From positions 309,801 through 373,800 of the forward strand of contig NZ_BAAAYN010000017.1 in NCBI RefSeq assembly GCF_039536245.1: a DNA stretch of 64,000 nt, given 5' to 3'. The translations under genes were made by a program, and so were the position numbers. The DNA comes from Cryptosporangium minutisporangium (GTDB lineage: Bacteria > Actinomycetota > Actinomycetes > Mycobacteriales > Cryptosporangiaceae). The notes under the pieces are model-generated. The model was not told where the DNA came from. It saw only the letters and a list, made by a program, of their open reading frames with translations, and searched no databases. This document shows, one piece after another, positions 13,888 through 39,851 of the stretch (the stretch's first letter is position 1; each line of letters begins with the position of its first letter).

Positions 13888-15005
13888 ACAGGCTGACGCT
13901 GCGGCTCCGGCTCGCGCTGGTGTACGGCGGGCTGTTCATGCTCTCCGGCGTGGTGTTGCTGGCCGTCACGTACGTGCTGATCGCGCAGCGCCTGCCGGCC
14001 GCCGGGGACGGGGGCCCGCTGGTGAAGGCAGGCGTGCCGGGCAAGGGCGAGTCGGTGATCACCGACGTCCGACAGGATGCGCAGCACGAGGCACTCACCG
14101 CTCTGCTCACCCAGGGCGGGATCGCGCTCGCCCTCGTCGGTGTCGTGGCAACGGCGTTCGGCTGGCTGATCGCAGGCCGGATGCTCCAGCCGCTGCACCG
14201 CGTCACCGAAACCGCCCGCCGGATCGCGGACGCGCCGATCGCCGATCGCATCCTGCACGAGCGCATCGCACTGGATGGTCCGCGCGACGAGGTCAAAGAG
14301 CTGGCCGACACGTTCGACGTCATGCTCGAGCGGCTCGACCATGCTTTCGACGGCGAGCGACGCTTCATCGCGAACGCGTCCCACGAGCTACGGACGCCGC
14401 TGACCGTCAACCGCGCCTTGTTGGAGGTAGCGCTACACCGTTCGGAGCCGGTGCCCGAGGTGCGCCACCTGGCCGAGACACTGCTGGCCGTCAACGGGCG
14501 CCATGAACGGCTGATCGATGGGTTGCTACTGCTCGCGCGGTCCGAGCGGGACGTCGGCGAACGGGCCTATCTCGACCTGGCCGACCTGGCCGACCACGTC
14601 GCGAACGCGGTGCAGCCGGGGTCGGTGACCGTGCTGACGAAGCTGGCCGAGGCGCCGACGCTCGGCAATCCGGTGTTGCTGGATCGGCTCGTGCAGAACC
14701 TGGTGGAGAACGGGGTGCGGTACAACCTGCCGTCCGGCGGGTGCGTCGAGATCCTGACCGGTGTGGCCGGTGGGTCGGCGGTGCTGGAGGTGCGCAACAC
14801 CGGGCCGGTGGTGCCGCGCTACGAGGTGCCTGGGTTGTTCCAGCCTTTTCGGCGGTTGTCGGAGCGGGTGGCCGGCGGGTCCGGCGCGGGACTGGGTTTG
14901 TCGATCGTGCAGGCGGTCGCGAAGGCGCACGGCGGGTCGGTTTCAGCGACGCCGGGCCTAGAGGGCGGCCTCGTCGTTACGGTGGTGCTGCCCTTGGCGG
15001 CGTAG
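13884..15005 (+). CDS. Two-component sensor histidine kinase
   Basis: A 373-residue kinase: helix 1 at residues 10-35, a short extracellular loop of about 45 residues (includes GKGESVITD), helix 2 at about 80-100 and a HAMP linker. HisKA carries FIANASHELRTPLTVNRALL with the phosphorylated His near 168. HATPase has VQNLVENGVRYNLPSG (N box) and SGAGLGLSIVQAVAKAHGG (G2). The ATGA overlap with the response regulator shows translational coupling. The small sensor loop implies a membrane or small-ligand signal. The Ser/Thr kinase gene follows closely downstream. Confidence 0.92.
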   Translation: MNRLTLRLRLALVYGGLFMLSGVVLLAVTYVLIAQRLPAAGDGGPLVKAGVPGKGESVITDVRQDAQHEALTALLTQGGIALALVGVVATAFGWLIAGRMLQPLHRVTETARRIADAPIADRILHERIALDGPRDEVKELADTFDVMLERLDHAFDGERRFIANASHELRTPLTVNRALLEVALHRSEPVPEVRHLAETLLAVNGRHERLIDGLLLLARSERDVGERAYLDLADLADHVANAVQPGSVTVLTKLAEAPTLGNPVLLDRLVQNLVENGVRYNLPSGGCVEILTGVAGGSAVLEVRNTGPVVPRYEVPGLFQPFRRLSERVAGGSGAGLGLSIVQAVAKAHGGSVSATPGLEGGLVVTVVLPLAA

Positions 15006-15049
15006 TCGGCGTGGCCATTGAGGTCGATGGGGAACGGTACCGTGTTCGG

Positions 15050-17125
15050 GTGCTCACTCCGGGAACCATGCTCAACCGCCGTTACCGGCTGGACCGCCGG
15101 ATCGGAGTCGGCGGTATGGGCGAGGTCTGGGCAAGCACCGACACGCTGCTCGGACGCCAGGTCGCGATCAAGGCGCTGCTGCCGGCCTTGGTCTCGGACG
15201 CGGAATTCATCACGCGGTTCCGCACCGAGGCGCGGATGATGGCTGCGCTCCGCCACCCAGGCATCGTCCAAGTGCACGACTACGGCGAGAACGCCCAGGT
15301 CGGCGACGACCATCTCGATTACGTCGTGATGGAGCTCATCCAGGGTGAGCCGTTGTCGAAGCGGATCAAGGCGGTCGGCGCCCTGGGCGTCATCGAGACG
15401 CTGACGATCGTGGCTCAGACTGCGGATGCGTTACACGCAGCGCACGAGGCCGGGATCGTGCACCGGGACGTCAAGCCCAACAACCTCCTGATCCGGCCCG
15501 ACGGGGCGATCGTCCTGATCGACTTCGGCGTAGCCCGGTCCGCTGAGATCACCAGCGTGACGTACGGCCACCTCATCGTCGGGTCGCCGCAGTACATGGC
15601 GCCCGAGCAGGCAACCGGCGGCCCGATCTCGCCGGCGACCGACATCTACGCGCTGGGCGCCGTTGCCTACTCCTGCCTGGTCGGTCGTCCGCCGCTCACC
15701 GGCGACAGTCCGGTGCACGTCATAGCGCGGCTCGTCCAGGGCGAGCCGGTGAGTTTGCCGGCCGAGCTGCCCGCGGCGGTGTCGGCGTTGGTGCTGCGAG
15801 CACTGGATCGGGAACCCGGGAAGCGGTTCGCAACGGCGGCGGCGTTCGCGGAGGCGGCCCGTGCGGCGAAGGCCGAGGTCGCCGTCGCTGAGATCAGTGC
15901 ACAGTCGACCGTGGCTACTGCCACGCAGGTCATCGCTCCGTCGGCTGCCGCCGATTCGGTGGGCGTTGGTGGCGGGGCGGATGCCGCAGGTACGGCAGGC
16001 GCCGCAGGTCCGGCGGGCACCGCAGGTACGGCGGGCACCGCAGGTACGGCGGGCGCGGCGGGTGCACCGGCCGCCGGCGCGCAGCCGGTGGCCTCGGGCA
16101 GCCCGATGGCTCCTCCCCCCGGACCGGCCTTTCCCGGGCTGACGCCTATCGTCCCGCCGGGTCCTGTCTCCCCACTTGCAGGCGCTCTTCCTGGACCCGC
16201 GCTTCCCTCGGGCTTTCCTACGCCGTCGGCAGCAGGCACACCGTTTCCCGTAGGCCCTTCAGCGGGACCGACCTATCCGGCGGAGCCGACATCCTCACCG
16301 GGACCCACCACCCCGCCGCCGGTCTTCCCCACCAGCCCACCCTCTTCGTCCAAGTCCGTCGCCTCCGGCGCTGGCGGACAGCCGGGATCCGCGTCAGAAG
16401 CACAACGCGGCAAGCGTCGTGGTGCAGCGCTTGTCGGGGTGGCCGGAGGGGTCGTCCTCGGACTCATCGCCCTGATCGCCCTACTGGCTTTCCGGCCGGA
16501 GTCATCGCCGTCCGAGGCACAAGCAGCGACGACCAGGACCGCCGACGCCACGGCAGGTGCTAGTCCGACGGCAGGAACTGGCCAGGGCCAGTCGAGCGCC
16601 CAATCGACCAGCAGGCTCACCGCGTCTCCCACACCGACGCTCGAGCCCTCCAAGCCGGCGCCGTCGTCGACGCCATCGGCACCAACCCAGCCGTCGGCAG
16701 ACGCACCCGGTACGAATCCCACACCCGGACCGCAGCCCAGTGCCGCACCCCCCACGACGGCACCGCCCGCAGCGCCACCACCCGCAGCGCCACCACCGGC
16801 GCCGAAGGCCGACCCCTCGGCGTGCCCCCGCGGCTACGTCTGCTTCTGGACCGGCGCGAACTACACCGGAGACATGGGAAAGCTGGCTGGTAAGAACACC
16901 GACTGGGCGGCGTTCAAGCACGCCACCTGCCCGGGCGGGACGTGGAGCGCCTGCGCTTCCTCGGTCTACAACAACGGCGCGAACTGCAAGGCGCAGCTGT
17001 TCAACCAGATCGGCTTGAAGAGTGCCCCGGGGACGTCGCCGCTGGTTCTCGCGCGCCAAACCGGCGCGACGCAGCTGTCCGGCTCGATGAATCGCCAGAT
17101 CCGGTCGAACAACTGGATCTGCTGA
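15050..17125 (+). CDS. Membrane Ser/Thr protein kinase with extracellular I36/crystallin-like domain
   Basis: A 691-residue protein from GTG 15050 (VLTPGTMLNRRYRL, usual for actinobacterial kinases); ATG 15068 is an alternative. Kinase domain 6-270: GVGGMGEVW glycine loop, VAIK lysine, IVHRDVKPNNLL catalytic loop, LIDFGVAR and GSPQYMAPEQA. A Gly-Thr-Ala and Pro-rich linker includes a run of GTA triplets. A single membrane helix lies near residues 460-483. After an extracellular Pro/Thr/Ser linker the last 100 residues resemble the peptidase inhibitor I36 family: ACPRGYVCFWTGANYTGDMG, six cysteines, and a closing NRQIRSNNWIC. This domain is probably the external sensor or binds a cell-wall or protease ligand. 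Confidence 0.88.
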   Translation: MLTPGTMLNRRYRLDRRIGVGGMGEVWASTDTLLGRQVAIKALLPALVSDAEFITRFRTEARMMAALRHPGIVQVHDYGENAQVGDDHLDYVVMELIQGEPLSKRIKAVGALGVIETLTIVAQTADALHAAHEAGIVHRDVKPNNLLIRPDGAIVLIDFGVARSAEITSVTYGHLIVGSPQYMAPEQATGGPISPATDIYALGAVAYSCLVGRPPLTGDSPVHVIARLVQGEPVSLPAELPAAVSALVLRALDREPGKRFATAAAFAEAARAAKAEVAVAEISAQSTVATATQVIAPSAAADSVGVGGGADAAGTAGAAGPAGTAGTAGTAGTAGAAGAPAAGAQPVASGSPMAPPPGPAFPGLTPIVPPGPVSPLAGALPGPALPSGFPTPSAAGTPFPVGPSAGPTYPAEPTSSPGPTTPPPVFPTSPPSSSKSVASGAGGQPGSASEAQRGKRRGAALVGVAGGVVLGLIALIALLAFRPESSPSEAQAATTRTADATAGASPTAGTGQGQSSAQSTSRLTASPTPTLEPSKPAPSSTPSAPTQPSADAPGTNPTPGPQPSAAPPTTAPPAAPPPAAPPPAPKADPSACPRGYVCFWTGANYTGDMGKLAGKNTDWAAFKHATCPGGTWSACASSVYNNGANCKAQLFNQIGLKSAPGTSPLVLARQTGATQLSGSMNRQIRSNNWIC
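15985..16062. repeat. GTA/GPA collagen-like coding repeat in the Ser/Thr kinase linker
   Basis: Short near-identical units of the GCAGGTACGGCGGGCACC kind encode GTAGTAGTAGAAG. A flexible, slippage-prone linker. Confidence 0.55.
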
Positions 17126-17537: not shown

Positions 17538-18041
17538 TCAGTCCTCAGACCGCGACGATTCCGCGTTCCGGGTTATCCCGGCCCGAACGGCAGTGTGGGA
17601 CTGTCCGGCCCGTCGCCGCGCTTGTTCGATCACTGCCTGGATGCGCTCAGCCGCCTCGGTCGGGTCTTCGTGCTCCCAAATCCGGACGACGGTCCAGCCG
17701 TGCTCGGCAATCAATCGGTCGGTCTCCGCGTCTCGTTCGCGGTTGCGGCGTACCTTCTCGGCCCAGAAGGTCGCGTTGGTCTTGGCGACGGTGTGGTGCT
17801 GCGGGCATCCGTGCCAGAAGCAGCCGTCTAGGAAGATCGCGACGCGGGCCTTGGTGAAGACAAGGTCGGCAGTCCGGCGCAGACCTGCTACGGGCCGAGT
17901 GTTGACGCGGTAGCGCATGCCGCGGGCGTGAACCGCCCGGCGCAGCGCCAACTCGGGGTTCGTATCGCGAGACTTGTTCGCCTGCATGCTGGCGCGGTTG
18001 CCTGGGCTGGACGCCCACGATGCCCCAGCTCGCGGAGTCAT
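17538..18041 (-). CDS. vsr: Very short patch repair endonuclease (Vsr)
   Basis: A 167-residue Vsr family nuclease. It starts with an extension of about 25 residues, then DTNPELALRRAVHARGMRYR, the TADLVF strand and IFLDGCFWHGCPQHH, which holds the catalytic Asp (about 72), His and zinc-binding Cys. FWAEKVRRNRERD and the closing WEHE follow. Vsr nicks 5' of the T in T:G mismatches that arise when 5-methylcytosine deaminates, so its partner is the cytosine methyltransferase at the head of the operon. Its ATG overlaps the TGA of the DUF6339-like gene. The C-terminal tail of about 20 residues (HTAVRAGITRNAESS) is extra. Confidence 0.93.
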   Translation of the reverse strand: MTPRAGASWASSPGNRASMQANKSRDTNPELALRRAVHARGMRYRVNTRPVAGLRRTADLVFTKARVAIFLDGCFWHGCPQHHTVAKTNATFWAEKVRRNRERDAETDRLIAEHGWTVVRIWEHEDPTEAAERIQAVIEQARRRAGQSHTAVRAGITRNAESSRSED

Positions 18042-18826
18042 GGGTTAGCCGTCCCGCGGGTCTGGTCGAGCGCCTTGACCGAGTCGCGAACCAGCTCATC
18101 GACACGCGCCTGAAGCTGCTCCTCGTGCAGCGCCATGAAGAGCGTGAATGGCAGCAGACGTCTGACGCGCTTGGTGACGTCCCTGATCACTCGGCGACGA
18201 GCAATGTGAGGGGGCGTCAAGTCGGGGTTCGTGACGGCGCGGGCGAGCGCTCGGGCGAGCGCTGGTCGTCCGCCGATACTCCGACGTTCGAAGATCTGGT
18301 TGAGGTCTGACTCACTCAGACGCGCGAGCAGGGTGCAGTCGGCCCGGCCGTCGGTTGTCGGCGTGGCTAGAGTGAACGCCTGCCACCAGAGTCGGCCGAG
18401 GGCATGGCGTGTGATGTCGGTGCAGATCCATCTCTGCTCATTGGTAGCGCTGGGCCAACGCCATGCAACAACGTCGGGAATGACCTGGATAGCGAGGAAG
18501 GTCCACAGGTCCCTCGCACTCGCTTCGGCCGGTTCCAAGCGCATCTGGTCGACCATGACGGACGCCAGAGTGCGGTCCGCCGCGGTCCGGTCGGTGTCAG
18601 TGGCGGTCCCCGGGTAGCCATGGGCCATGACTGCGTCCCGGAACCTACCGGCCAGCCGGTCGAGGTGTTCGGAAGCAGCGGGTACACCCCCGGTCGCCGC
18701 GAAGTACATGTCGGGGTGTCGCGGTTCAGCACCGTCTCGAAGCTCGTCGATGTTCCGACCCGTGAACTGAGACAGGCGAGCTCGGGCGGCGAGAGGCGTC
18801 AAGCGGGGATAGAGCAGGAGCGTCAT
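18038..18826 (-). CDS. DUF6339-like protein, defence island component
   Basis: A 262-residue, mostly helical soluble protein without recognised catalytic motifs. Recognisable stretches are LYPRLTPLAARARLSQF at the start, DLWTFLAIQVIPDVVAWRWP in the middle and the basic segment PPHIARRRVIRDVTKRVRRL near the end. It resembles proteins annotated as DUF6339, seen beside cytosine methyltransferases, GHKL ATPases and Z1 proteins. Aromatic and basic residues could suit nucleic-acid or partner binding, but this is inference. ATG 18826 overlaps the preceding stop by 4 nt, and its own TGA overlaps the vsr start. Translational coupling suggests it is a fixed subunit. Confidence 0.6.
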   Translation of the reverse strand: MTLLLYPRLTPLAARARLSQFTGRNIDELRDGAEPRHPDMYFAATGGVPAASEHLDRLAGRFRDAVMAHGYPGTATDTDRTAADRTLASVMVDQMRLEPAEASARDLWTFLAIQVIPDVVAWRWPSATNEQRWICTDITRHALGRLWWQAFTLATPTTDGRADCTLLARLSESDLNQIFERRSIGGRPALARALARAVTNPDLTPPHIARRRVIRDVTKRVRRLLPFTLFMALHEEQLQARVDELVRDSVKALDQTRGTANP

Positions 18827-19737
18827 GACGCACCGTCGGGTGTGGCGCGGCGCAGAGCGCCTTGGAGGCGTGCAGCGAACTCCCCGGGACGTTCGGCGCG
18901 TTGCGCCGCGAGGGTCTGATGTGGTTCGCCGGGGAAGAGGGACTCCAGCGCGATGGCGAGGCTGGCGCCGAAGCTGTCGGGCTCGACGACGCAGTGGGGA
19001 AGGGCCTCCAGCCAATCTGGTCGTAGCAGGACGAGGTCGACTAGTTGTCGGGTGACGTCATGACGCATCTCGTCGAGGAGCCGCTGCTGAGCTGGCGTGG
19101 GAGCGGCTGCCCGCACCGCAGCATTAACCAGTTCCTTGTCGGCGGCGTTGAGATACAGCCGGAGCCCGCCCATGACTGGCATGTCGGGGTCCGGCGGAGT
19201 CTGTAGATACCAACGGGCGGCCGGGTCGATTCCGGCGCCCGTGAAGTCACAGACGCTGATCGGGAACATCGCGTCATCGCCTTGGAGACGGGTGGTCATG
19301 ACGTCATCGAGAAGGATCTCGCCGGCGCGGGAAGCGATGAAGCTTTGCGGGTCGGAGGAGTCGACGGCGACAACGACGGCCGTGCGCAGCACAAGCGAGC
19401 CACCGAGATTCGTTCCGGCGATGCGTCCGGTGAGCGTGTGTGTCGAGGCCGCAATGAGATCGTCGACGTGACCGAGGAGCCCAGAGAGCTGCGAGGCGGT
19501 GGCCGTCCACTCGCAGACACATGCCAGCTCCGTCTCAGGTGGGAGTCCGGCGTGCTGCAGCAGGGCGGGAGCGTCGACTTTGACATCTCGAGTTAGGTGC
19601 AAGTCGGTCTGGTAATCCCAGGCGGCCACCGTCGCGGGCAGCGAGACGGGTACGCCGTCCGCGCCGAAGGACTGCCACGGCGTGAAGGTGATACAGGTCG
19701 CCGGAGGCCTCAGGTAGGGGTAGACAGGCGCGCTCAT
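18823..19737 (-). CDS. Uncharacterised defence island protein
   Basis: A 304-residue soluble protein I cannot assign to a named family. The first 200 residues look alpha/beta with regular strands (LACVCEWTATASQLSGLLG, LGGSLVLRTAVVVAVD, GGLRLYLNAADKELVNAA). The last 100 are helical with DWLEALPHCVVEPDSFGAS and ALESLFPGEPHQTLAAQRA. The pattern recalls a protein that reads out or bridges the ATPase, but no catalytic motif is visible. It lies exactly between the GHKL ATPase and the DUF6339-like gene with ATGA overlaps on both sides, so it is expected at fixed ratio with them. Confidence 0.6.
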   Translation of the reverse strand: MSAPVYPYLRPPATCITFTPWQSFGADGVPVSLPATVAAWDYQTDLHLTRDVKVDAPALLQHAGLPPETELACVCEWTATASQLSGLLGHVDDLIAASTHTLTGRIAGTNLGGSLVLRTAVVVAVDSSDPQSFIASRAGEILLDDVMTTRLQGDDAMFPISVCDFTGAGIDPAARWYLQTPPDPDMPVMGGLRLYLNAADKELVNAAVRAAAPTPAQQRLLDEMRHDVTRQLVDLVLLRPDWLEALPHCVVEPDSFGASLAIALESLFPGEPHQTLAAQRAERPGEFAARLQGALRRATPDGAS

Positions 19738-21563
19738 GCCTTATCTCTCTCGCCAGCCACCAATTCAAGGCTGACCGAGACCTGGGTGGCGGCGCCGGAC
19801 ACTGGTCGAACCACGACCGTCCACCGGCGCGGGTCCGACGGGCGAACTTGAGTGTGGTCGCCCAGCACACGCGCGCCGTCGGATTGGAGTTCGACGACAC
19901 GCGGCCGGGGCGCACCGGTCGGTGGTTCCGTTTCGTTTCCGACGTCGAGGGCTACGACGGCGTCGGCGGTGAGCACTAGCGTCTCCGTGGTCTCTGCGAC
20001 GTCGACTACGGTCACGATGAGCGGTTGCCCATCGACGATCGCCATCGTCGGGGCTTGAACTACCGACACTTTGGGCCTTCGGCCGCGACCGCCACCGGGT
20101 GCGTTGCCTCGCGTCGTGATGGCCTCAGATGTCACGCCGGTGGGTGCGACCAGGACGCCAAGGCGTTGTGAGAGATGTCCCAGCGGCGGTTGCGTCATTA
20201 CCGACACTGCACCGACGGATGCTGCGGCGATGTCGGCGAGCCGCGTGCGGATACCTCGGAGGGCGGCGTCGACTGTGCGGCGGTCAGAATCTGGTAGGCC
20301 CTGAGTAACCCATGCGTCATGGGTGGGAGGCTCGGCCGCGGCGAACGACTCGTCGGAGGCCCGACTGCTCCGGAACACAGCTCCGTACTGCTGATCGTCA
20401 GCGGGCAGGACGGGGCCTTCGAGATACGTGACGACAAGGCCTGCCTGTCTCATCAGGGCACAGTGCCTGGCTGGGCCGCTAAACGGTGCAGCGATGTCGC
20501 GCCAGTCGCGCTTGGTCGGGGCGAGCGCGGAAGTGGCGTGAAAGGAACCGATGTCGAGGGGTGTCGGCCGCCGTCTTGTGATCGACTTGCCATCGCCAGC
20601 GTTGATCGCCTTGAGAGATGTGACGAACGGCCACAGCCTCGGCACAGACACAGGGTCGGGAACCTCAATGGTTCGACTGGCGGTAACGACTCGGCACTCC
20701 ATGGCCGGTTGCCCCCCGTCGGGGGTAGCGAGCAACGGCCACAGATTCCACAGCATCGCCGAGGCGATGAAGTCGGCGCCGTGCTCCACGTCGCGAACTG
20801 GGGCCTCGTCGTCGGCGTTCCCGAGGTCGCTTCCGAGGTCAGCACCGACGATGACGATGTCGGTACCGAGGGCGTCTGGTCCTTCGAAGCACGGCAAACC
20901 GAGACCGTCGGCAATCGCGTCGGCGTCGTCGTCGAGTAGTGGGTCGAGAACACCGTCCCTAACGGTTCCCCACCAGTGACGTCCCGTGAATGGGACACCG
21001 TCGGCCTGAAATCTGTGCCCGAGAGCGACACCGATCAGCCGACTCTGTACTCGTCCCTGCCATCTGCATCGGGACCGGACCAGGACGACGCCTACCGAGC
21101 TGGTGGTGAATAGGATGCCTTTACCGAAGCCGTACGTCCCGCCGCCGAACTCTTTGTCCCGCGGCTCGCCGATGTTGCGAATCAAATTTACGAAATCCGG
21201 TTCGTCGCCCAGTTCGTCGGCGCGGAGCGGCCCACCGAGCCCAGTGGTGTGACGGTCGGAGACGGTCAGCATCACGGTCGACTCGCTGGATAGACACGCT
21301 TCCAAGCCGAGCGAAGCGTCGCCTGCGGGCTCGGGTAGGAGGATCTCGCGCCAACGTCCGCGGGCATCGGCGTCGAGCGTATTGAGAGTGATGGTGAAGT
21401 CGACGGGATGCTCGCCGCTGCGCGCGTCAGCGCTGTTCTGGGCGGCTTCGCGGACGAGTACATCAAGCGAGTCGAGACGCGGGGTGCCGAGTTGCCTGCG
21501 GATTCCCTCGGATGCGGCGGATCCTTCCGGCGCGAACCGTTGCGACCACCATTGTGGCGTCAC
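19734..21563 (-). CDS. MORC/MutL-like GHKL ATPase of the defence island
   Basis: The gene starts at GTG 21563, which overlaps the TGA of the PD-(D/E)XK gene; this gives 609 residues. GHKL motifs are clear: REAAQNSADA at 38-47 (N box with catalytic Glu and Mg-binding Asn), SDRHTTGLGGP at about 102-112 (the DxGxG motif) and FGGGTYGFGKG at 139-149 (ATP lid). This is the pattern of MORC and MutL/Hsp90-type ATPases that dimerise on ATP binding and can clamp DNA. The middle (150-400) would be the S5-like transducer. The C-terminal 130 residues are beta-rich (VSVVQAPTMAIVDGQPLIVT, ending VSVSLELVAGERDKA), perhaps an Ig-like or target-binding domain. Confidence 0.85.
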   Translation of the reverse strand: MTPQWWSQRFAPEGSAASEGIRRQLGTPRLDSLDVLVREAAQNSADARSGEHPVDFTITLNTLDADARGRWREILLPEPAGDASLGLEACLSSESTVMLTVSDRHTTGLGGPLRADELGDEPDFVNLIRNIGEPRDKEFGGGTYGFGKGILFTTSSVGVVLVRSRCRWQGRVQSRLIGVALGHRFQADGVPFTGRHWWGTVRDGVLDPLLDDDADAIADGLGLPCFEGPDALGTDIVIVGADLGSDLGNADDEAPVRDVEHGADFIASAMLWNLWPLLATPDGGQPAMECRVVTASRTIEVPDPVSVPRLWPFVTSLKAINAGDGKSITRRRPTPLDIGSFHATSALAPTKRDWRDIAAPFSGPARHCALMRQAGLVVTYLEGPVLPADDQQYGAVFRSSRASDESFAAAEPPTHDAWVTQGLPDSDRRTVDAALRGIRTRLADIAAASVGAVSVMTQPPLGHLSQRLGVLVAPTGVTSEAITTRGNAPGGGRGRRPKVSVVQAPTMAIVDGQPLIVTVVDVAETTETLVLTADAVVALDVGNETEPPTGAPRPRVVELQSDGARVLGDHTQVRPSDPRRWTVVVRPVSGAATQVSVSLELVAGERDKA

Positions 21564-22555
21564 GACAGGTCCCCGGTACAAATGAGCCTCGCAGCGCCGC
21601 CTGCGGTGGCGTGCGGGGTGAGGCCGGCAAGGTCGAGGTCGTACCGGACGGCGACTACCTCGGTCGGTACGGCGGCGAAGGAGTTCACGTCCAAGCGAGG
21701 GAACACGGGGTCGATCTTCCATGCGTACAGAGCCGACTGAGTGAATTTGCGCGCACGGTAACGGTCGGCTTCGGCGTGTACGTATCCGGCCTTGGCGAGT
21801 TGTCGCCCCAAGCCAGCCAGATCGCCGATGGTCCGCTCCAACGCCTCTACCAATTCGGGTAGCGACACGCCGTCGGCGGCCGCCTCGAGTCGCACCACTG
21901 CGAGGACGAGCTCGTGGCCCGGGCCGACGTGCAGTTGATCGAGGCCATGAATCGTCACCGTGGAGCCGCGGGAGCCGACGGTCTTCACCTCGACGCATCG
22001 TCCGCCGAGCGTGAAGTCGTGGACCGCCCGGTCCGGGCCAGTCCACAGGCGGTCGACGAGGCCGACGAGGCCGGCCTCGGCGAGCAACTGCAGAATCAGC
22101 AGCTCACCGATCAGTCCGCGTAATTCTCCTTCACGGAGCACGCCACCACTGGGGCGTAGCAATTCCCGCCATTGCTGCAAGACCCGTGCTACGACCTCGC
22201 CGACCACCGCAGGGGCATCGGCGACGCCCTCGACCAACGCGACGATCATCTCGTCGAAGACGTCGAACAGGTCAGGACGGTGGCAGACGACGTCGACGTA
22301 GCGGCGTCGGTGGCCGTCGATGATCAACGGGCGGGTGTCCACTCGCACGTGCGCCGACTTGCCGTCCTCGACGGTGGCGTGGTCTTCGCTGATTGGAAGG
22401 AGCAGATGGTGGTCGCCCCGGCTGTCAAGACCCAACGCGGCCGGCCCTGATTGGGTGGAAACCGGGAGGTCGAGGGTGGCGATGGTGCCCTCGGGTCGGC
22501 GCGTTGCGAGGAGCCTCCATCCGATCCGAACCGTCGACGCGATATCGTCGTTCAC
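21560..22555 (-). CDS. PD-(D/E)XK motif protein (DUF4420-like nuclease)
   Basis: A 331-residue protein with the REase-fold core RGLIGELLILQLL, then an aspartate in VHDFTLGG (180) and CVEVKTVGS (Glu 189, Lys 191), the D...ExK catalytic triad pattern. This matches the PD-(D/E)XK motif/DUF4420 family, the putative DNA-cutting subunit found in Z1/MORC-type systems. The N-terminal third is beta-rich and may recognise DNA or a partner. It overlaps the Z1 stop by ATGA and is overlapped by the ATPase GTG start. Cleavage specificity cannot be read from sequence. Confidence 0.85.
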   Translation of the reverse strand: MNDDIASTVRIGWRLLATRRPEGTIATLDLPVSTQSGPAALGLDSRGDHHLLLPISEDHATVEDGKSAHVRVDTRPLIIDGHRRRYVDVVCHRPDLFDVFDEMIVALVEGVADAPAVVGEVVARVLQQWRELLRPSGGVLREGELRGLIGELLILQLLAEAGLVGLVDRLWTGPDRAVHDFTLGGRCVEVKTVGSRGSTVTIHGLDQLHVGPGHELVLAVVRLEAAADGVSLPELVEALERTIGDLAGLGRQLAKAGYVHAEADRYRARKFTQSALYAWKIDPVFPRLDVNSFAAVPTEVVAVRYDLDLAGLTPHATAGGAARLICTGDLS

Positions 22556-25125
22556 GCCTCGTCCTCGGACAGGGCGGCACGCTCCTCTTCGGCGTCTTCT
22601 GCGTCGGTCGGCTGGTCTTGCGGGTTAACGGCTATATAGCTGACGTTGGGCACCCAGTCGTCGGCAGTACCTGGGAAGACGAGCGCCATACCCAGGACGT
22701 GCTCGACTGCCTGGAGTGGGTCACGAGTCTGTTCGTTGCCCTCGTCCGGAGGAGAGTCCTTTGCGATCGGATACAGCAGCAACAGGCCCTGCATGCGATG
22801 GCGGGGGTCGCGGTCGCGGCTGACCATGAGGTCGGCCTCGGCCATTCGACGGGCCGTCGCGGGCGGGATATCCAGGTCGATGACGCGGTGTTCCTTGCTC
22901 ATCAGCGTCTTGATGTCGGCCTTGTCACCTCCGGTGTCCTTGAGTTTTGACCGGTTCACCGTGCCGACTACGACGCCGGATGCAAAGGTCACCAGGTGCT
23001 TCTCGTCCGTGTCCGGAGGTGACCCGACAACGGCGACGCTCCAAGAGAGCAGGGCCGGATCGGACTGGCGGTTCTCCTTACGGATGTACTTGGTAATGAG
23101 GGCGTCGTTGAGGTCCGGCGAGTCCTCGTGCACGTGATACGACTTGAGGAACGCCAACACATGTTCGACGTCGACTTCCCGCAGCAGCACCTCGCCGCCC
23201 GCCACCTCAACGGCTGCACCGTCGTTGATCGCGGCCTGCACGAGATCCCTGCCAGCCTGCAGGTTCTCATACAGCCACTTCTCGTCGTGCTCGCGGAAAT
23301 AGCGGGTCTGTACCCGTCGACCGCCGTACGACGCGTAGGCGATTCGCGCGGCACCCATCTTCGCCGTGACATTGAGCACGGGGTGCGTACGAATGCGGAC
23401 GCCGACGTCACGAGGACTGAGGTCCTGCTCCTCGTATCGTTCGATGTCCAAGCGGATCTCGTGCTCGACGACGGCCAGGTGGCGAAACCAGGAACGTAGC
23501 CGTTGCGTCATCCAGATCCGCGGCAGATCCTCGTATCCGGGTCGGTAGCCGAACCAGCGACCCATCTGCAGCAGGGTGTCGTAGGTTGACGCCGACCGTA
23601 CGAAAAAGCTGGCTACGAGCCCTTCCAGCGTCAGCCCTCGCGAGAGAGTATTGCCGCCGACGGCGATAGCGGTGACGGGCGGGCCGGAGTAGTTCAGGCG
23701 GTCCTTGCTCCGGCAGTTGTCCAGCACGATCGTGGTGTCCTGAACGACTTGCCGCAGTACCGGCAGCAGGGTGTCGAAGTCAACGTGCGGATACCCTCCC
23801 AGGGGCACTCTGCCCTGCTCGTCCTGCCACTGCTTTGCTAGAGAGTCGAGGAGCGTCTGATCGAAGGCCGTTAGACCGGTCAGCACTCGAGAACGAAAGC
23901 CCTCAAGAACCGGGCGGAACGCTTCGTGGACTGCCGTTGTCATGCTGGTATGCACCAGCATCGTCGAGTGTCCCGAGTCGCGTCGAAGGCGCCGTACCGC
24001 TGTGGCGAGCCAGAAGTACCGAACGGCGTCTCGAAGCGAGTCAGTCAAATCCGGTGCGAAGCCGACCGCTGCGGCCCGGGTAGCCGGACGCAGCGACGGC
24101 ACCTCGTCGTCGCCGATGATGCGCACCATGTCGTAGCCGTCCAGCTCGGCGCCTCGAGCCTCGCCCTCCGCCGCGTCGCGACCGAAGATCGACTCTGCAC
24201 CGAAATAGCCCTGCTGTCGCGGCAGGCTGACGATGAACGACTCGGGGTACAGGTCGTCGGCGTTCGGGTCGATCAGCACGTTCGCGAATGGTGTCGCCGT
24301 GTAGCCGAGGTAGGTCGCCCTGGGGAACAGGCTGAGGAGCTCAAGGATCTTGGGGTTGATCTGCTTAGTATCGACGCTGGCCTGATCGGCCTCGTCGTCG
24401 ACGATAAGAGCCGGGATATTCGCCAGCACGGGTCGAGCGGCTTTCAACCAGGTGATCAGCTTCGTCAGGACGGTGTGCCACTTCTTCACCACGAACACGG
24501 CCACCTTCTGACCGTTGGGCTGTAGCAGGGACACGGCCTTCTGCGTCGGGCGCTGAAAATCACGCTCGACGTCAGTCATCTCGATCCAGCCGCCCTGGTT
24601 GAGATCGAACAGCTCCCTCTTGAGCCGCTGCTGGGTCTGCATGCGCAGCCCGTTGTGAATCCCGGAAAGGATAATCACGACGCGGAACCCTACATCCGCG
24701 GCCTTACCGACCACGGCTGTGAAGTTCGTGGTCTTGCCGCTCTGCACGTGCCCGACGACAAGGCCCTTCGTGGTGAACCTAGGCTCCGCAGGGTTGTCAC
24801 CGAAGCCGATGATCTTCGACGAAACCTCGTTCAGCTCGTCGACACGGCTCTCCGGCCAGGCCTTGTCGTGGAGCAGGAACTTCTTGAATGGCGGCCAGAA
24901 CGCGTCGTTCGGCTGCGGGCCGGCGTACCATCCGTCATCGCGCCTACCCGGAGCCGCCAGAATCTTCGGCGGATAGCCATTCTTGACTTGCGTGATGCGG
25001 CGGTCGTACTCGGCGATGACCGCGTCGGCGGCTTCCGGATGCATCTGCCGGAACCGGTCGGCCGCAAGGTCCCGCCCACGCCGGTAGACTACGTCCAGGA
25101 ATGTCTCGAAGAGGGCATCGTCCAC
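22552..25125 (-). CDS. Z1 domain superfamily II helicase
   Basis: An 857-residue protein. Walker A GHVQSGKTTN is at 125-134, the DEAD-type box IVDDEADQAS at 241-250, motif III-like GYTATPFAN at 274-282 and, further on, the Z1 signature with LLQMGRWFGYRPGYEDLPRIW-like sequence near residue 520 (motif VI arginines). The first 110 residues are helical and the C-terminal third is mixed with an acidic end (DAEDAEEERAALSEDEA). Z1 proteins are SF2 ATPases linked to restriction-modification and MORC operons. The likely job is translocation on or remodelling of DNA that lacks the protective methyl mark. It starts 42 bp after the methyltransferase. Confidence 0.92.
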   Translation of the reverse strand: MDDALFETFLDVVYRRGRDLAADRFRQMHPEAADAVIAEYDRRITQVKNGYPPKILAAPGRRDDGWYAGPQPNDAFWPPFKKFLLHDKAWPESRVDELNEVSSKIIGFGDNPAEPRFTTKGLVVGHVQSGKTTNFTAVVGKAADVGFRVVIILSGIHNGLRMQTQQRLKRELFDLNQGGWIEMTDVERDFQRPTQKAVSLLQPNGQKVAVFVVKKWHTVLTKLITWLKAARPVLANIPALIVDDEADQASVDTKQINPKILELLSLFPRATYLGYTATPFANVLIDPNADDLYPESFIVSLPRQQGYFGAESIFGRDAAEGEARGAELDGYDMVRIIGDDEVPSLRPATRAAAVGFAPDLTDSLRDAVRYFWLATAVRRLRRDSGHSTMLVHTSMTTAVHEAFRPVLEGFRSRVLTGLTAFDQTLLDSLAKQWQDEQGRVPLGGYPHVDFDTLLPVLRQVVQDTTIVLDNCRSKDRLNYSGPPVTAIAVGGNTLSRGLTLEGLVASFFVRSASTYDTLLQMGRWFGYRPGYEDLPRIWMTQRLRSWFRHLAVVEHEIRLDIERYEEQDLSPRDVGVRIRTHPVLNVTAKMGAARIAYASYGGRRVQTRYFREHDEKWLYENLQAGRDLVQAAINDGAAVEVAGGEVLLREVDVEHVLAFLKSYHVHEDSPDLNDALITKYIRKENRQSDPALLSWSVAVVGSPPDTDEKHLVTFASGVVVGTVNRSKLKDTGGDKADIKTLMSKEHRVIDLDIPPATARRMAEADLMVSRDRDPRHRMQGLLLLYPIAKDSPPDEGNEQTRDPLQAVEHVLGMALVFPGTADDWVPNVSYIAVNPQDQPTDAEDAEEERAALSEDEA

Positions 25126-25167
25126 AGTCGGTCACCTTATCCGATTAGCTCCGACGCTTTTGGCTGG

Positions 25168-26250
25168 CTAGAGACGATCATCCAGCGCTTCGGCGATGTA
25201 CTGCCCAAGGGCTTGGGCCAACTCCACCGGCACCGCATTACCGATTTGTCGCGCAATCTGAATTTTTGTGCCGCACCAGCGAAAATCGTCACCGAAGCCC
25301 TGCAAAAGGGCTGCTTCCCGGTGAGTGATCGCCCGATGCTCGGAGGGGTGAAGGTAGCGACCCTTCTCGGGCTTGAAGAATTCGGTCCGTATCGTCACCG
25401 AAGGTTTATGCCACCGGAGACGACCCATAACGTCTCCGGCTCCGCTCGTGTGCTTCAACCAACACGGTGACTTTAGACGGTCGGGAAGACTGAACCGGTT
25501 TTCACCTTCACCGATGTGTGTAAAGCGCTCTAGCGAGCGCGGGTCGTAGTGGCGAGTGACGTGAAGGTCGTAGCCGGTATATGCGCCCGGCATCGTCACG
25601 CCGAAGTGCTCGACTGTCGTCTTAGGCAGGTCACGCTGCTCCGCGGGAACCTTCATCGGCACATCAAGCAGCGCGTCGTACACCGTCTTGCGGCGATCCG
25701 CGGGCACGGACCCGTCCGGTACCTCGATCGGCTTCAGAAGGTCGCGGTGGGTGCCGATGACGATTGCCCGCCTGCGTACCTGCGCGGACCCGAAGTCGGC
25801 CGCCACCAACAGCTTCTTGTCGAGTACGTAGTCGGACAGGAGCCCGCCCTCGGTCTCCGCTTCCAGATCAGCGAATTGAGTGCTCTGCAGAAAGCGAGGA
25901 ACGTTCTCGATAACGAAGGTTTTGGGCTTGATCAGACCTAGCACACGCACGTACTCACGCCACAGCTCGTTCCGCGGATCGTCGTCGCGCTTCGATCCAA
26001 GATTGGAGAAACCCTGACACGGAGGGCCGCCGACGACTACGTCGGCCTCGGGCGCCGGTTCGTCCTTCAGCCAGTCGACGATGCTGCCCGGCCACATGTG
26101 GTCCTCGCCGAAGTTCTCGGCGTAAGTAGACGCGGCAGCCAGATCAAGCTCCACCGCCGCGACCGCATCGTAGCGGCCAGTACGCCGAAAACCCTCAGTA
26201 ATCCCACCACATCCGGCGAATAGGTCGATGACGCGGTACCGGTTGAGCAT
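25168..26250 (-). CDS. DNA (cytosine-5)-methyltransferase
   Basis: A 360-residue m5C methyltransferase. Motif I is VIDLFAGCGGITEGF; motif IV is VVGGPPCQGFSNLG with catalytic Cys near residue 78; motif VI is VIENVPRF; motif VIII is GSAQVRRRAIVIG; motif IX is HREAALLQGFGDDF; motif X is IARQIGNAVPVELA. The target-recognition region lies at about 215-300. It would mark host DNA so that the downstream Z1, nuclease and ATPase proteins spare it, and creates the deamination hazard that Vsr repairs. I use ATG 26250; no Shine-Dalgarno is visible, so it may be leaderless or weakly translated. Confidence 0.95.
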   Translation of the reverse strand: MLNRYRVIDLFAGCGGITEGFRRTGRYDAVAAVELDLAAASTYAENFGEDHMWPGSIVDWLKDEPAPEADVVVGGPPCQGFSNLGSKRDDDPRNELWREYVRVLGLIKPKTFVIENVPRFLQSTQFADLEAETEGGLLSDYVLDKKLLVAADFGSAQVRRRAIVIGTHRDLLKPIEVPDGSVPADRRKTVYDALLDVPMKVPAEQRDLPKTTVEHFGVTMPGAYTGYDLHVTRHYDPRSLERFTHIGEGENRFSLPDRLKSPCWLKHTSGAGDVMGRLRWHKPSVTIRTEFFKPEKGRYLHPSEHRAITHREAALLQGFGDDFRWCGTKIQIARQIGNAVPVELAQALGQYIAEALDDRL

Positions 26251-26717
26251 GGCACGAACGATAGCCGGCCAACGCTGCATCGCGCGCGTCGACCCACAAG
26301 CCCTAGCCCCGGTATACCTACTAAGCCAGAGTCGAGTATCTCGGCCTCGGCGAACCATGGACTATGCCGCCGCGCTGGCGACACCCACCACAAGGGAGCG
26401 GGCCTGTCGGATGACCGTCCCGCAGCGCGCCGACCAAGACCTCGACGCCGGGAAGCTCGAGCCTCGCTGTCGTGTACAAGTCGATCAACGCCGCTCACAC
26501 CCGGGCCACGCGGCCCCCGGTGAGCGGCAACGCCGAGTTCGAGAGCTGGAAGACCGTCCGCTCGATTAGCTTCGGCCCCAATCAGGCAGGACGGCTGGTC
26601 GACACCGCCCGGATCCTCATCATCGCACTGGAATGGACCCACGGTCATCCCCAAGGGCAAGGTTTGCAACCTGGAGTTTCTATTAGATCAAGCGATGTAG
26701 GCGATCGCCTGTCCCGC

Positions 26718-27257: not shown

Positions 27258-27334
27258 TGGAGCCGCCTAAGGGAATCGAACCCTTGACCTACGCATTACG
27301 AGTGCGTCGCTCTGGCCGACTGAGCTAAGGCGGC
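27258..27334 (-). tRNA. tRNA-Thr (anticodon CGT)
   Basis: On the minus strand the acceptor arms are GCCGCCT and AGGCGGC with discriminator T and an encoded CCA at 27260-27258. The D-arm is TTAGCTCAGTCGG-like, the anticodon stem ACGCA/TGCGT encloses loop CTCGTAA with anticodon CGT (reads ACG), and the T-arm is GGGTTCGATTCCC. All stems pair. Its 3' end points toward the defence island, the usual side for integration. Confidence 0.97.
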
Positions 27335-28522: not shown

Positions 28523-28557
28523 GCGGTGGAATGGATGTTGCGCTTCGCGTGCCATGG

Positions 28558-28906
28558 TGCGGAGAGCGCGACAACCACCGGGCTCGCCACACGGAAGGTG
28601 CGACAACCACATCCCGCGCCACACGGAAGGCACGACAACCACCTTGCGCATCGCACGGAAGGCACGACAACCACGCACGCAGCCGCGCGGGAAGCACGCC
28701 AACTACCGGGCGGGCCGCACAGCCCGCTGCGCCGCCGCACGGAAGGTGCGACAACCACATCCCGCGCCACACGGAAGGCACGACAACCACCTTGCGCATC
28801 GCACGGAAGGCACGACAACCACGCACGCAGCCGCGCGGGAAGCACGCCAACTACCGGGCGGGCCGCACAGCCCGCTGCGCCGCCGCACGGAAGGTGCGAC
28901 AACCAC
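28558..28906 (+). repeat. Nested tandem array: 148-bp repeat built from 32-bp units
   Basis: Two essentially identical 148-bp copies occupy 28591-28738 and 28739-28886, and a third begins at 28887 and breaks off after about 20 bp. Inside each copy, units start at 28590, 28622 and 28654 with 32-bp spacing. They share CACGGAAGGYRCGACAACCA followed by about 11 variable bases, and a degenerate longer unit follows. A diverged unit precedes at 28558. The region is intergenic. It is not a CRISPR array: the short variable parts repeat exactly with the 148-bp period and there is no cas gene. Confidence 0.85.
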
Positions 28907-29084
28907 GCCGTGCACCGCGGCAACCGCCCCGCGCCCCGGCGGCCATCGGGCGGGACGGGAGCACGGCGGCGTACTAACGAGGACGCGAGGCGCACTTCCT
29001 GCACCACGACGGTGGAGCGGGACGTCGAGGCCTCGAGCCCCGGCTACCGCGCCGAATCAGACCGCGCCCGCCAGGCAGGCGTAA

Positions 29085-38939: not shown

Positions 38940-39851
38940 TCACGAGATCATCGGTACCTGCGCGAACCCCTGGCCGATGAACGTCAGCGCGCCGGGCGCC
39001 ACCGAACGCCAGAACGTCGCGTCGTGGCAGCCCGGCGACACCCGCACCTGGGCCTCGTCCGGCAGGGCCGCTTTCAACGCCGACATGTTCGACGTGAAGG
39101 AGTCGTCGGTGCCGTAGTCGACGCGCACCGGCATCCCGGTCAGCGCCGCGCCGTTCGCGAGGACGTCGTAGCGGCTCCAGTCCGCGGCCGAGTCGAAGGC
39201 CTGCGCCATCGACTTCCGCGCCGCCGTGTAGTCGCGCCAGATCGCCGGCCCGGCGACCGCGCAGGCCGCCACTCGCGGCGCGTGGAGCTCGGCGAAGAGC
39301 AACGCGCCGTACCCGCCCATCGAGTAGCCGAGCAGCCCGATCCGCTGTCCGGCACCGGTTTGGAGCCCACGGCCGGCCAGTAGCGGCAGGAACTCGTCGA
39401 CGAGCATGCCGAGCGGATCGTCACCGTCGGCGCGCGGATGCCAGAACCGGGGGCCACCGTCGGCGGCCGCCAGCACGAACGGCGGAACGCCTGCCCTGAC
39501 GACGTCGGCGAGGTAGCGCGGTAGGGACAGCTCGTCCCCCAGTACGTCCTCGTCGCCGCCGTGGCCGTGCAGTACCAGGCAGACCGGCAGCGGCTCGTCG
39601 TCGCGGGCGCCCGGCGGGTAGGCGATGCGGTAGCGCACCGTCGCCCGGCGGTGCGCGGACCGGAACTCCCCCCGCACCACGTCCCCGGCCGCCGACCGCG
39701 GCTCCGGGGCGTAGACGTCGCAGGCGCCGAGCGCCCGGCGGAGCTGGAACTCGCCCGGCAGCACACCGGCGCCGACCAGGCTCACTCCGCTGACGGCGAG
39801 CAACCCGAGTCCGGCGACTCCACCGCCCAGTACCGTGCGTCTACTCACCAC
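38940..39851 (-). CDS. Tat-exported alpha/beta hydrolase (esterase)
   Basis: A 303-residue protein with a twin-arginine signal (SRRTVLGGGVAGLGLL). The hydrolase has the oxyanion strand VCLVLHGHGGDED, the nucleophile elbow LLGYSMGGYGALLFAE (GxSxGG), an acidic residue in VRVDYGTDD and a late histidine in VSPGCHDATFWRSV. This is the esterase D/mycolyltransferase-like group without a clear mycolyl motif. The start is GTG 39851, or the GTG one codon later. The product acts outside the membrane. Substrate unknown. Confidence 0.82.
   Translation of the reverse strand: MVSRRTVLGGGVAGLGLLAVSGVSLVGAGVLPGEFQLRRALGACDVYAPEPRSAAGDVVRGEFRSAHRRATVRYRIAYPPGARDDEPLPVCLVLHGHGGDEDVLGDELSLPRYLADVVRAGVPPFVLAAADGGPRFWHPRADGDDPLGMLVDEFLPLLAGRGLQTGAGQRIGLLGYSMGGYGALLFAELHAPRVAACAVAGPAIWRDYTAARKSMAQAFDSAADWSRYDVLANGAALTGMPVRVDYGTDDSFTSNMSALKAALPDEAQVRVSPGCHDATFWRSVAPGALTFIGQGFAQVPMIS

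Follow-up and report, generated by a model that had tools for sequence, protein, structure and literature searches.

A putative paraMORC2/Z1-type restriction-modification operon in Cryptosporangium minutisporangium

Introduction

Among the operons predicted by Iyer, Abhiman and Aravind in 2008, the third type encodes an SF2 helicase, a restriction-endonuclease-fold protein with E-D-ExK residues, DNA methylases, Vsr and a GHKL+S5 ATPase (PMC2292703). In the same account, paraMORC2 ATPases carry an ExxxH signature and are found chiefly in cyanobacteria and Gram-positives. The silencing ATPases of the eukaryotic MORC family are proposed to derive from prokaryotic relatives. The putative "Type I" defence system of Miller et al. 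(2022) comprises Z1, a PD-(D/E)XK protein (printed as DUF4220), a cytosine methyltransferase and three further genes, and is described as strongly associated with DNA-repair endonucleases (PMC9523054). A sequence-only reading of the present DNA had rightly pointed to the 2008 prediction; a fitting gene set had, however, already been put forward in 2022 as a defence system.

Two other systems come close. In CglI and NgoAVII, which have been studied biochemically, a Z1-domain ATPase works with the R-protein at unmethylated sites (PMC4267653). In VcSduA (paraMORC3/Shedu), antiphage activity depends on ATPase as well as nuclease residues, and its description is consistent with a restriction of phage that leaves the host viable (PMC12137116). 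In view of these studies, the earlier remark that the mechanism of this class has little direct experimental support was too broad. The literature searched gave no functional data on the exact system type described here, and nothing showing a role of paraMORC2 inside a restriction-modification (R-M) operon. The open-access literature searched, with subscription papers outside its scope, gave no report on DUF6339, DUF4420 or PDC-M33.

Gene content and genomic setting

By ORF reading, the 64-kb window (the whole stretch of DNA analysed) encodes seven intact genes on the minus strand that form one co-directional operon. The sequence-only reading had placed them between 17538 and 26250, and all were present in exactly this interval. 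Pfam matches also bore out its C5 methyltransferase, Z1, PD-(D/E)XK protein and Vsr.

25168..26250, minus strand: C5-cytosine DNA methyltransferase (PF00145, E 1.1e-55; motifs FAGCGG, GGPPC, ENV)
22552..25125, minus strand: Z1-type SF2 helicase/translocase, 857 aa (PF10593, E 1.1e-64; motifs SGKT, DDEAD, DTLLQMGRWFG)
21560..22555, minus strand: DUF4420 PD-(D/E)XK protein, 331 aa, predicted nuclease (PF14390, E 5.2e-44)
19734..21563, minus strand: GHKL+S5 ATPase, 609 aa, paraMORC2-like by AlphaFold model, VIA alignment and motifs
18823..19737, minus strand: Unk304, 304 aa (a relative in 81 of 81 loci; model pLDDT 92.4)
18038..18826, minus strand: DUF6339 protein, 262 aa (PF19866, E 9.8e-11)
17538..18041, minus strand: Vsr-type T:G mismatch endonuclease, 167 aa (PF03852, E 9.4e-20)
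27258..27334, minus strand: tRNA-Thr(CGT), with a synteny break at its 3′ end

Position 17538 is the end of vsr and 26250 the likely ATG of the methyltransferase gene, for which an alternative in-frame ATG lies at 26358 in a frame that is also open. A gap of 42 nt separates the methyltransferase and Z1 genes. The remaining five junctions are 4-nt overlaps linking the last six genes, and the ATPase gene has a GTG start that overlaps the upstream stop. Promoter and terminator scans yielded nothing above chance. Synteny with three genomes of the same genus breaks at the 3′ end of tRNA-Thr(CGT), which is likely an insertion hotspot, and the GC content of the operon is lower than that of its flanks. 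No att-type direct repeat was seen between the tRNA gene and the opposite end of the operon. The ATPase is patchily distributed, with a presence in eight of 396 genomes from the phylum of the window, and a pattern-based scan of viral contigs detected no relative of it. The locus is probably a mobile R-M defence operon of the paraMORC2/Z1 type, and its earlier assignment to the R-M operons predicted by Iyer et al. is upheld (PMC2292703).

Conservation across related loci

We compared the window with 80 relatives found via the ATPase (81 loci in total). Z1, the Unk304 family and DUF6339 were each present in all 81 loci, and the five genes Z1-DUF4420-ATPase-Unk304-DUF6339 shared this order, on one strand, in 74 of them. 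Therefore, the grouping of these genes is not due to chance, and homologues occur as a set, as the sequence-only reading had expected. In one of the 74 ordered loci, L066, the ATPase gene is split over two frames. The constant part is the trio of ATPase, Unk304 and DUF6339, which elsewhere is seen without DUF4420 or without Z1. Two loci (L020 and L021) have the trio, or the ATPase and DUF6339, without Z1 and DUF4420, and two haloarchaeal plasmid loci likewise keep the ATPase and DUF6339 without either gene. Other enzymes lie near Z1-less loci, namely an SF2 helicase in L020 and L021 and REase-ARP in L022. This comparison separates the constant trio from exchangeable cutters.

The Z1 helicase motifs are strongly conserved: SGKT was found in 81 of 81 loci, as was DDEAD save for its A (80 of 81). 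The helicase motif of Iyer et al., DThhQXuRhFG, appears in the window as DTLLQMGRWFG, with D, Q, R, F and G in all 81 loci and T in 79. In DUF4420, the residues E151, D180, E189 and K191 (E189xK191) were each conserved in 76 of 76 sequences, in agreement with the E-D-ExK pattern of Iyer et al. A restriction-endonuclease fold is thus predicted from these residues and from the Pfam family, which is described as PD-(D/E)XK. Searches of PDB sequences with Z1, DUF4420 and DUF6339 gave no match. All nine DUF4420 matches in the 396 genomes of the window's phylum, the window's own included, adjoin a Z1 gene.

The sequence-only reading had named DUF4420 as the cutter of unmethylated DNA. The invariant PD-(D/E)XK residues suggest that it may be so; the gene is, however, missing from its slot in seven of the 81 loci. 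Two Rhizobium/Agrobacterium plasmid loci keep Z1 and the trio and lack DUF4420. Together with the haloarchaeal loci, these cases indicate that not every locus includes the nuclease step. The neighbours of four loci without DUF4420 (L027, L028, L067 and L078), as far as they were covered, included helicases, MZB and HIRAN proteins and no consistent replacement nuclease.

Methyltransferase and Vsr

The methyltransferase of the window keeps the catalytic Cys in motif IV (GGPPC), an intact catalytic motif as expected of an R-M system. It falls in group A of the active methyltransferases of these loci, and a methyltransferase lies inside the cluster in 76 of 81 loci. Vsr scored 123.7 bits against TIGR00632 (cut-off 97.85) and aligned to the solved Vsr structure 1cw0 (E 2.9e-13); its D59 and H77 were conserved in 58 of 58 sequences. 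The vsr gene is present in 55 of 81 clusters and absent from the other 26, in which the core stays. It accompanies 41 of 43 loci with a group-A methyltransferase and 11 of 31 with group B (Fisher's exact test, kinship ignored: p = 2e-8). Because its presence tracks the methyltransferase type, Vsr appears tied to the methyltransferase and not to restriction. Vsr also adjoins other C5 methyltransferases in L149, L150 and L151, with no core genes within 19 kb, and in L152, with core genes 7 kb off. In a haloarchaeal locus, an HhH-GPD base-excision protein follows the methyltransferase in place of Vsr.

A paraMORC2-like ATPase

The ATPase and Unk304 of the window matched no Pfam model or PDB sequence, and searches with their families were empty in PDB and without credible match in Pfam. 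The AlphaFold model of the ATPase (pLDDT 87.4) showed the GHKL fold that the sequence-only reading had proposed, with GHKL+S5 covering residues 12-454 by VIA alignment, followed by a C-terminal beta domain at about 499-601. The best VIA match was Morc3 (5ix2_A; Z 19.6, rmsd 3.6, 304 residues aligned), tied with Hsp90, and the model also matched TopoVI and MutL (Z 15.7). The MORC part of the earlier description did not hold, since the strict MORC motif of S5, GhXhhpXXRhl, is absent from the window ATPase; a regular expression for it matched one of 81 homologues (L076), near residue 180. In its place stands the paraMORC2 signature ExxxH (E411-PPT-H415), whose E411 and H415 were invariant in 47 of 47 sequences; this is a two-residue signature in the C-terminal part of S5, compared with the published description by Iyer et al. 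By motif and model, the window ATPase is paraMORC2-like and falls outside MORC as strictly defined.

Unk304 and DUF6339

The Unk304 model has an N-terminal beta sandwich and a C-terminal helical domain. Its best VIA matches were Ig-like sandwiches (Z at most 7.7, residues about 9-156), a value within the range that the tool gives for models lacking a clear match, and the C-terminal helical half was barely covered. Therefore, we leave the fold of Unk304 unnamed. The positional counterpart of Unk304 in L020 and L021 gave a weak profile match (hhalign 67.9%, E 4.9e-5), and that in L022 and L023 gave none. In PADLOC, PDC-M33A was matched by 47 of 47 ATPase family members (window 34.9-36.2 bits) and PDC-M33C by DUF6339 (window 19.3 bits). 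The database search suggested by the sequence-only reading thus gave weak, partial matches for these two proteins, and none for the Unk304 family (0 of 49). No PDC entry was found in the available text of PMC9252829.

The DUF6339 protein of the window has no C-terminal extension. Some relatives bear a C-terminal tail, which is a dead methyltransferase, an HTH domain (32.1 bits, above cut-off, in L088; 20.2 bits, below the cut-off of 23, in L082) or an unassigned sequence. An initial assignment of a DUF3320/HARE-like tail to eight relatives (L053, L059, L062, L073, L074, L079, L080 and L102) was dropped. Among the five of these tails searched (L053, L062, L074, L079 and L102), only L074 matched at E < 0.01 (DUF3320, 17.3 bits, below the cut-off of 25), and L079 and L102 had matches only at E 0.08-0.1. 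Therefore, no family was given to these tails.

In 21 of 81 loci we observed a C5 methyltransferase that lacks the catalytic Cys (Pro-Cys to Pro-Arg), either fused to DUF6339 or standing alone beside the operon. This dead methyltransferase/DUF6339 family is a new element of the present analysis, and the open-access literature searched, which leaves out subscription papers, contained no report of restriction involving a dead C5 methylase. Linked to DUF6339, the dead protein is perhaps a DNA reader. Seven dead copies occur with an active methyltransferase of group A and 14 with group B; the genome of the window lacks a close member. Dead and active methyltransferases of the same locus shared about 24-27% identity over long alignments, 42-46% over 51-62 residues, or gave no hit. 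These alignments lend no support to a shared recognition domain, and nothing in them contradicts a site common to both. The unbiased check for dead copies is thin, because one of its two dead hits was the query itself (the dead domain of L021).

Possible mode of action

We propose that the C5 methyltransferase would mark a sequence in host DNA, and that the paraMORC2 ATPase, Unk304 and DUF6339 would form a clamp, driven by ATP, that senses DNA with unmethylated sites or loads onto it. The clamp would then license the Z1 motor to move along DNA and the DUF4420 protein to cut it, giving a putative antiphage activity. Vsr would act outside restriction, by repairing T:G mismatches that arise from deamination of the 5-methylcytosine made by the methyltransferase. 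A more tentative extension, possible and rather less probable than the R-M assignment itself, is that the trio is a self-contained, ATP-gated methylation-sensing module that plugs into Z1-DUF4420, other SF2 helicases or REase-ARP, with DUF6339 as the DNA-reading adaptor and, in some lineages, a fused or adjacent dead C5 methyltransferase as the reading head. If true, such a system, with a dead methylase as reader and a live one as writer, would have an R-M architecture that falls outside Types I-IV. The idea makes a testable prediction: binding to the unmethylated site is expected of DUF6339 or of the dead methylase fused to it.

The loci that lack Z1 and DUF4420, or DUF4420 alone, could mean that the trio works without cleavage, silencing unmethylated foreign DNA by MORC-like trapping or compaction with Z1 and DUF4420 as optional partners, and a MORC ATPase is indeed the best structural match. 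We consider this unlikely: the Morc3 match is tied with Hsp90, the DUF4420 active-site residues are invariant wherever the gene is present, and the helicase or REase-ARP near the Z1-less loci suggests that another cutter may serve there. It is rather unlikely, too, that a phage-sensing complex kills the host by cutting host DNA, with the methyltransferase as antitoxin. AIPR proteins, whose name implies abortive infection, can accompany Z1/DUF4420 relatives, as in the MZA-like locus L116; the seven window proteins, however, include no AIPR or other known toxin, and the description of the related VcSduA is consistent with restriction of phage with the host kept viable (PMC12137116).

The similarity of the GHKL fold to MutL and the frequent presence of Vsr would also fit very-short-patch repair at methyltransferase sites by a MutL-like ATPase, Z1 and Vsr. 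This we regard as improbable, as 26 clusters keep the core without Vsr, Vsr follows the methyltransferase type and stands beside other C5 methyltransferases away from core genes, and the conserved PD-(D/E)XK residues of DUF4420 and the patchy ATPase look like defence and not like housekeeping repair. Decay of the window copy is very improbable. Its G1 box reads D-R-H-T, with a His at residue 105 that might weaken ATP binding; Gly occupies this place in 67 of 81 loci and His in one. However, the place holds N, D or H in 12 loci (two more are off pattern), the window ATPase keeps its N-box and glycine-rich motifs, and the seven frames, all of them open, can be aligned with L024 over almost their full length, apart from the Vsr ends.

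Comparison with known systems

The window Z1 and DUF4420 proteins are MzaC-like and MzaD-like, respectively, and both score far below the NCBIfam equivalog cut-offs of the MZA system, MzaABCDE (361.6 against 1500 bits and 116.1 against 420 bits). An AIPR gene belongs to MZA, whereas the window has a methyltransferase and DUF6339. No AIPR, PLD or B3 match was found among the seven window proteins at E 0.01. CglI and NgoAVII share with the window a C5 methyltransferase and a Z1-domain ATPase coupled to restriction. However, they have three genes and a PLD+B3 R-protein nuclease, and they lack the GHKL trio and DUF4420 (PMC4267653). VcSduA likewise pairs a GHKL ATPase with a PD-(D/E)XK nuclease against phage, but as one fused paraMORC3 protein whose description in PMC12137116 includes neither methyltransferase nor helicase.

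The Type I core of Miller et al., Z1 with a PD-(D/E)XK protein and a cytosine methyltransferase, is present here together with vsr. Section 11 of PMC9523054, which describes Type I, gives no paraMORC assignment, mechanism or dead methyltransferase for it; the ATPase, Unk304 and DUF6339 are candidate counterparts of its three further genes. The operon type of Iyer et al. has the same helicase, restriction-endonuclease-fold protein, methylase, Vsr and GHKL+S5 ATPase, although the window ATPase is not a strict MORC, and the available text of PMC2292703 makes no mention of Unk304 or DUF6339. Since both studies predicted such systems, the operon of the window is a further case of an already predicted, unproven kind, in a compact form with clear catalytic residues to mutate.

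Operon organization and insertion site

The seven genes lie on the minus strand at 17538-26250, in the following order of transcription.

C5-cytosine methyltransferase (MTase)
Z1 helicase
DUF4420 protein, a predicted PD-(D/E)XK nuclease
ATPase of 609 aa
Unk304, a protein of 304 aa
DUF6339 protein
Vsr, a T:G mismatch endonuclease

The MTase and Z1 genes are separated by 42 nt. At each of the other five junctions, start and stop codons overlap by 4 nt, an arrangement that points to a single operon with translational coupling. The GC content of its genes is 61-67%, against 67.5-75% in 2-kb bins outside 18-28 kb. Pfam matches among the seven proteins were PF00145, PF10593, PF14390, PF19866 and PF03852 (E-values from 1e-10 to 1e-64). 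By PADLOC and NCBIfam, Z1 was nearest to MzaC and DUF4420 to MzaD, both falling far under the NCBIfam equivalog cut-offs.

The operon lies next to a tRNA gene, at a variable position. On the right side, three genomes of the same genus match the window down to 27258-27260, where tRNA-Thr(CGT) has its 3′ end; beyond this point they diverge, with different DNA beside the tRNA (about 2 kb, 5 kb and at least 10 kb). On the left side, synteny extends to 17123 in one of them (G002) and to 14992 in another (G003), and no syntenic match was found in the third (G001). The ATPase was found in none of the four nearest genomes, and a search for an att repeat around the tRNA-Thr gene and the operon identified none.

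The window has two tRNA-Thr genes 12 kb apart (27258-27334 and 39424-39510), both with the CGT anticodon, and the variable DNA lies at the first. Upstream of the operon, 26486-26560 shows 78% identity (77 columns) to a stretch of G001 located where the differing DNA beside the same tRNA has its far end. Near the tRNA, at 28553-28912, there are imperfect direct repeats spaced mostly by 32 nt. For a Ser/Thr protein kinase gene (14741-17125), the C-terminal part of which matches a peptidase inhibitor I36 domain, the syntenic stretch of G003 (L138) gave no match at E 1e-4.

Conservation of the gene set

A pattern scan with the ATPase family over 84,980 species, one genome per species, yielded 268 relatives, of which the best 80 were retained. 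These are the nearest ones and are not independent; their records label them as actinobacterial, apart from three loci of Chloroflexota (L056, L075 and L089). In these best 80 of 268 together with the window (81 loci), Z1, the ATPase, Unk304 and DUF6339 were present at every locus, DUF4420 at 76, an MTase within the cluster at 76 and Vsr at 55. The order Z1-DUF4420-ATPase-Unk304-DUF6339 on one strand was found in 74 of the 81, including L066, whose ATPase occupies two frames; at the other seven (L027, L028, L029, L031, L058, L067 and L078), DUF4420 is missing between Z1 and the ATPase. Only one of the 80 others, from Actinoplanes sandaracinus (L024; protein identity 69-81%), has all seven genes in exactly the window's order. 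MrfA-type zinc-binding (MZB) proteins adjoin two of the loci without DUF4420 (L028:3354-5108 and L067:3670-5514), and these may resemble DrmB of DISARM.

The ATPase is rare. Counting the window's genome in each case, it occurs in 8 of the 396 genomes searched from the window's phylum and in 5 of 101 nearer genomes, and DUF4420 gave nine matches in 8 of the 396. All nine DUF4420 matches adjoin a Z1 gene, and ATPase, Unk304 and DUF6339 (hereafter the trio) are present at five of them. Among the other four, one (L116) has AIPR and HATPase_c_3 proteins, two (L117 and L120) have a HATPase_c_3 protein nearby, and the fourth is L118.

The trio and its partners

The loci of more distant ATPase relatives point to the trio as the system's constant part. 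Two loci (L020 and L021) encode the ATPase, a weak Unk304 counterpart, DUF6339 and methyltransferases; neither Z1 nor DUF4420 lies within 19 kb, and an SF2 helicase gene is close by. Two others (L022 and L023) combine an ATPase relative with an MTase and Vsr, without recognizable Unk304 or DUF6339; a REase-ARP endonuclease is present in L022. Matches were also found in five plasmid records. A Synechococcus plasmid has Z1-DUF4420-ATPase-Unk304-DUF6339, and those of Rhizobium and Agrobacterium have Z1-ATPase-Unk304-DUF6339, without DUF4420. At two haloarchaeal plasmid loci, which lack Z1, the ATPase and DUF6339 flank an unassigned gene, a second ATPase copy and a C5 MTase. A single open frame of 1205 aa in L021 (8531-12148) contains sigma-70 regions 2-4, an HTH_3-like stretch just under the cut-off and the paraMORC2-like ATPase; this may represent a single fusion protein or two genes sharing the frame.

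Fold and family of the ATPase and Unk304

Neither the ATPase nor Unk304, as single sequences or as families of 47 and 49 members, gave a credible Pfam match or any match in a PDB sequence search. AlphaFold models built from the family alignments were confident (mean pLDDT 87.4 for the ATPase and 92.4 for Unk304). Residues 12-454 of the ATPase model align with the Morc3 ATPase module (5ix2_A; Z 19.6, rmsd 3.6, 304 residues), and further structural matches were Hsp90 (Z 18.9 and below), MORC4, SMCHD1, TopoVI and MutL. The model thus predicts a GHKL domain followed by an S5 domain. Unk304 is modeled as a beta sandwich and then a helical domain, and no solved structure is a clear counterpart.

Since Morc3 and Hsp90 are less than one Z unit apart and effectively tied, the fold alone does not identify a MORC protein. 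In the available part of Iyer et al. 2008 (PMC2292703), the defining feature of MORC is the motif GhXhhpXXRhl within S5, and that of paraMORC2 is ExxxH, conserved in the C-terminal part of the same domain. A regular expression for the MORC motif found no match in the window and one among the 81 homologues (L076, near residue 180). E411 and H415 of the ATPase are invariant (47/47), and the stricter pattern E[PA]P[TS]H fits 77 of 81. Therefore, we call the ATPase paraMORC2-like rather than MORC, by the motifs as Iyer et al. describe them.

A dead methyltransferase family associated with DUF6339

In 13 of the 81 loci, all from Streptomyces, the C-terminus of DUF6339 is fused to a C5-methyltransferase domain (PF00145; E-values 1e-34 to 1e-39 in the three tested) whose catalytic Pro-Cys is replaced by Pro-Arg (GGLPR and similar). 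The same dead family stands alone in eight Nocardia loci, adjoining an active MTase (in L055 it is split in two frames), and in L020 and L021, beside an active MTase and the trio.

Dead methyltransferases among the 81 loci
Fused to DUF6339, Streptomyces: L060, L063, L065, L070, L076, L083, L090, L094, L095, L098-L101
Stand-alone, Nocardia: L055, L061, L072, L081, L082, L087, L088, L096

In a tree of the family, all 22 dead copies have Leu/Met-Pro-Arg, and simple patterns find motif I in 21 of them and an ENV-type motif in 20. The dead copies group as a single clade, or almost: two changes are required on the tree, as one relative with an intact Cys (L073) falls beside L060. When the dead domain of L021 was searched against 346 genomes (threshold E 1e-25), six sequences matched. 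Two were dead and adjoined the trio (L018 and L021, the query itself), and the other four keep the Cys and have no trio gene within 19 kb. As one dead match is the query, the independent evidence from this sample is one dead versus four live copies.

The DUF6339 tail is HTH_3 in L088, falls below the HTH_3 cut-off in L082 and belongs to no assigned family in eight loci; 57 of the 81 proteins have no tail of at least 25 residues. This gain of DNA-binding domains in several lineages suggests that DUF6339 may act as a DNA-reading adaptor. Since the DUF6339 of the window is without a tail and a search of its genome for the dead family found no close member (best 38 bits), we infer the adaptor role there from these other lineages.

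Vsr and methyltransferase type

Most of the active MTases at the 81 loci belong to one of two groups; seven loci are in neither. Vsr is present in 41 of 43 loci of group A, which includes the window, versus 11 of 31 of group B (Fisher's exact test, ignoring kinship: p = 2e-8). It also adjoins C5 MTases of another family at three loci without core genes within 19 kb (L149, L150 and L151), and at a fourth such locus (L152) it lies 7 kb from the MTase. That Vsr tracks the MTase type, and also occurs without the core, argues against Vsr being the restriction nuclease and fits repair of T:G mismatches from deaminated 5-methylcytosine made by the MTase. In a Halomicrobium urmianum plasmid, an HhH-GPD base-excision protein (L155:3825-4460) is encoded directly 3′ of the C5 MTase in an ATPase-DUF6339 locus and may fill the role of the actinobacterial Vsr.

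Proposed mechanism and relation to known systems

From the observed gene set, folds, catalytic residues, gene order, Vsr-MTase link and insertion site, a mechanism can be proposed. The MTase would mark self DNA, the trio would recognize unmarked DNA with ATP-driven clamping, Z1 would move and DUF4420 cut, and Vsr would carry out repair. The Z1-ATPase restriction-modification enzymes CglI and NgoAVII (PMC4267653) and the GHKL-nuclease protein VcSduA (PMC12137116) are precedents, as described in the available parts of these reports. Against this mechanism count the non-universal presence of DUF4420 among the loci and our literature search, which found no test of an exact member.

The system falls under the Z1 operon type of Iyer et al. 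2008 (PMC2292703). In its Z1, PD-(D/E)XK and cytosine methyltransferase genes it also matches a putative defence system that Miller et al. 2022 (PMC9523054) call "Type I" and that has three extra genes. A Corynebacterium diphtheriae island reported in 2017 similarly has Z1, DUF4420, a Dcm-like MTase and three unclassified genes (PMC5379612, in its available part). The window is a further instance of an already known, unproven kind of system, to which this analysis adds the placement of the ATPase with paraMORC2, the view of the trio as modular, and the dead methyltransferase.
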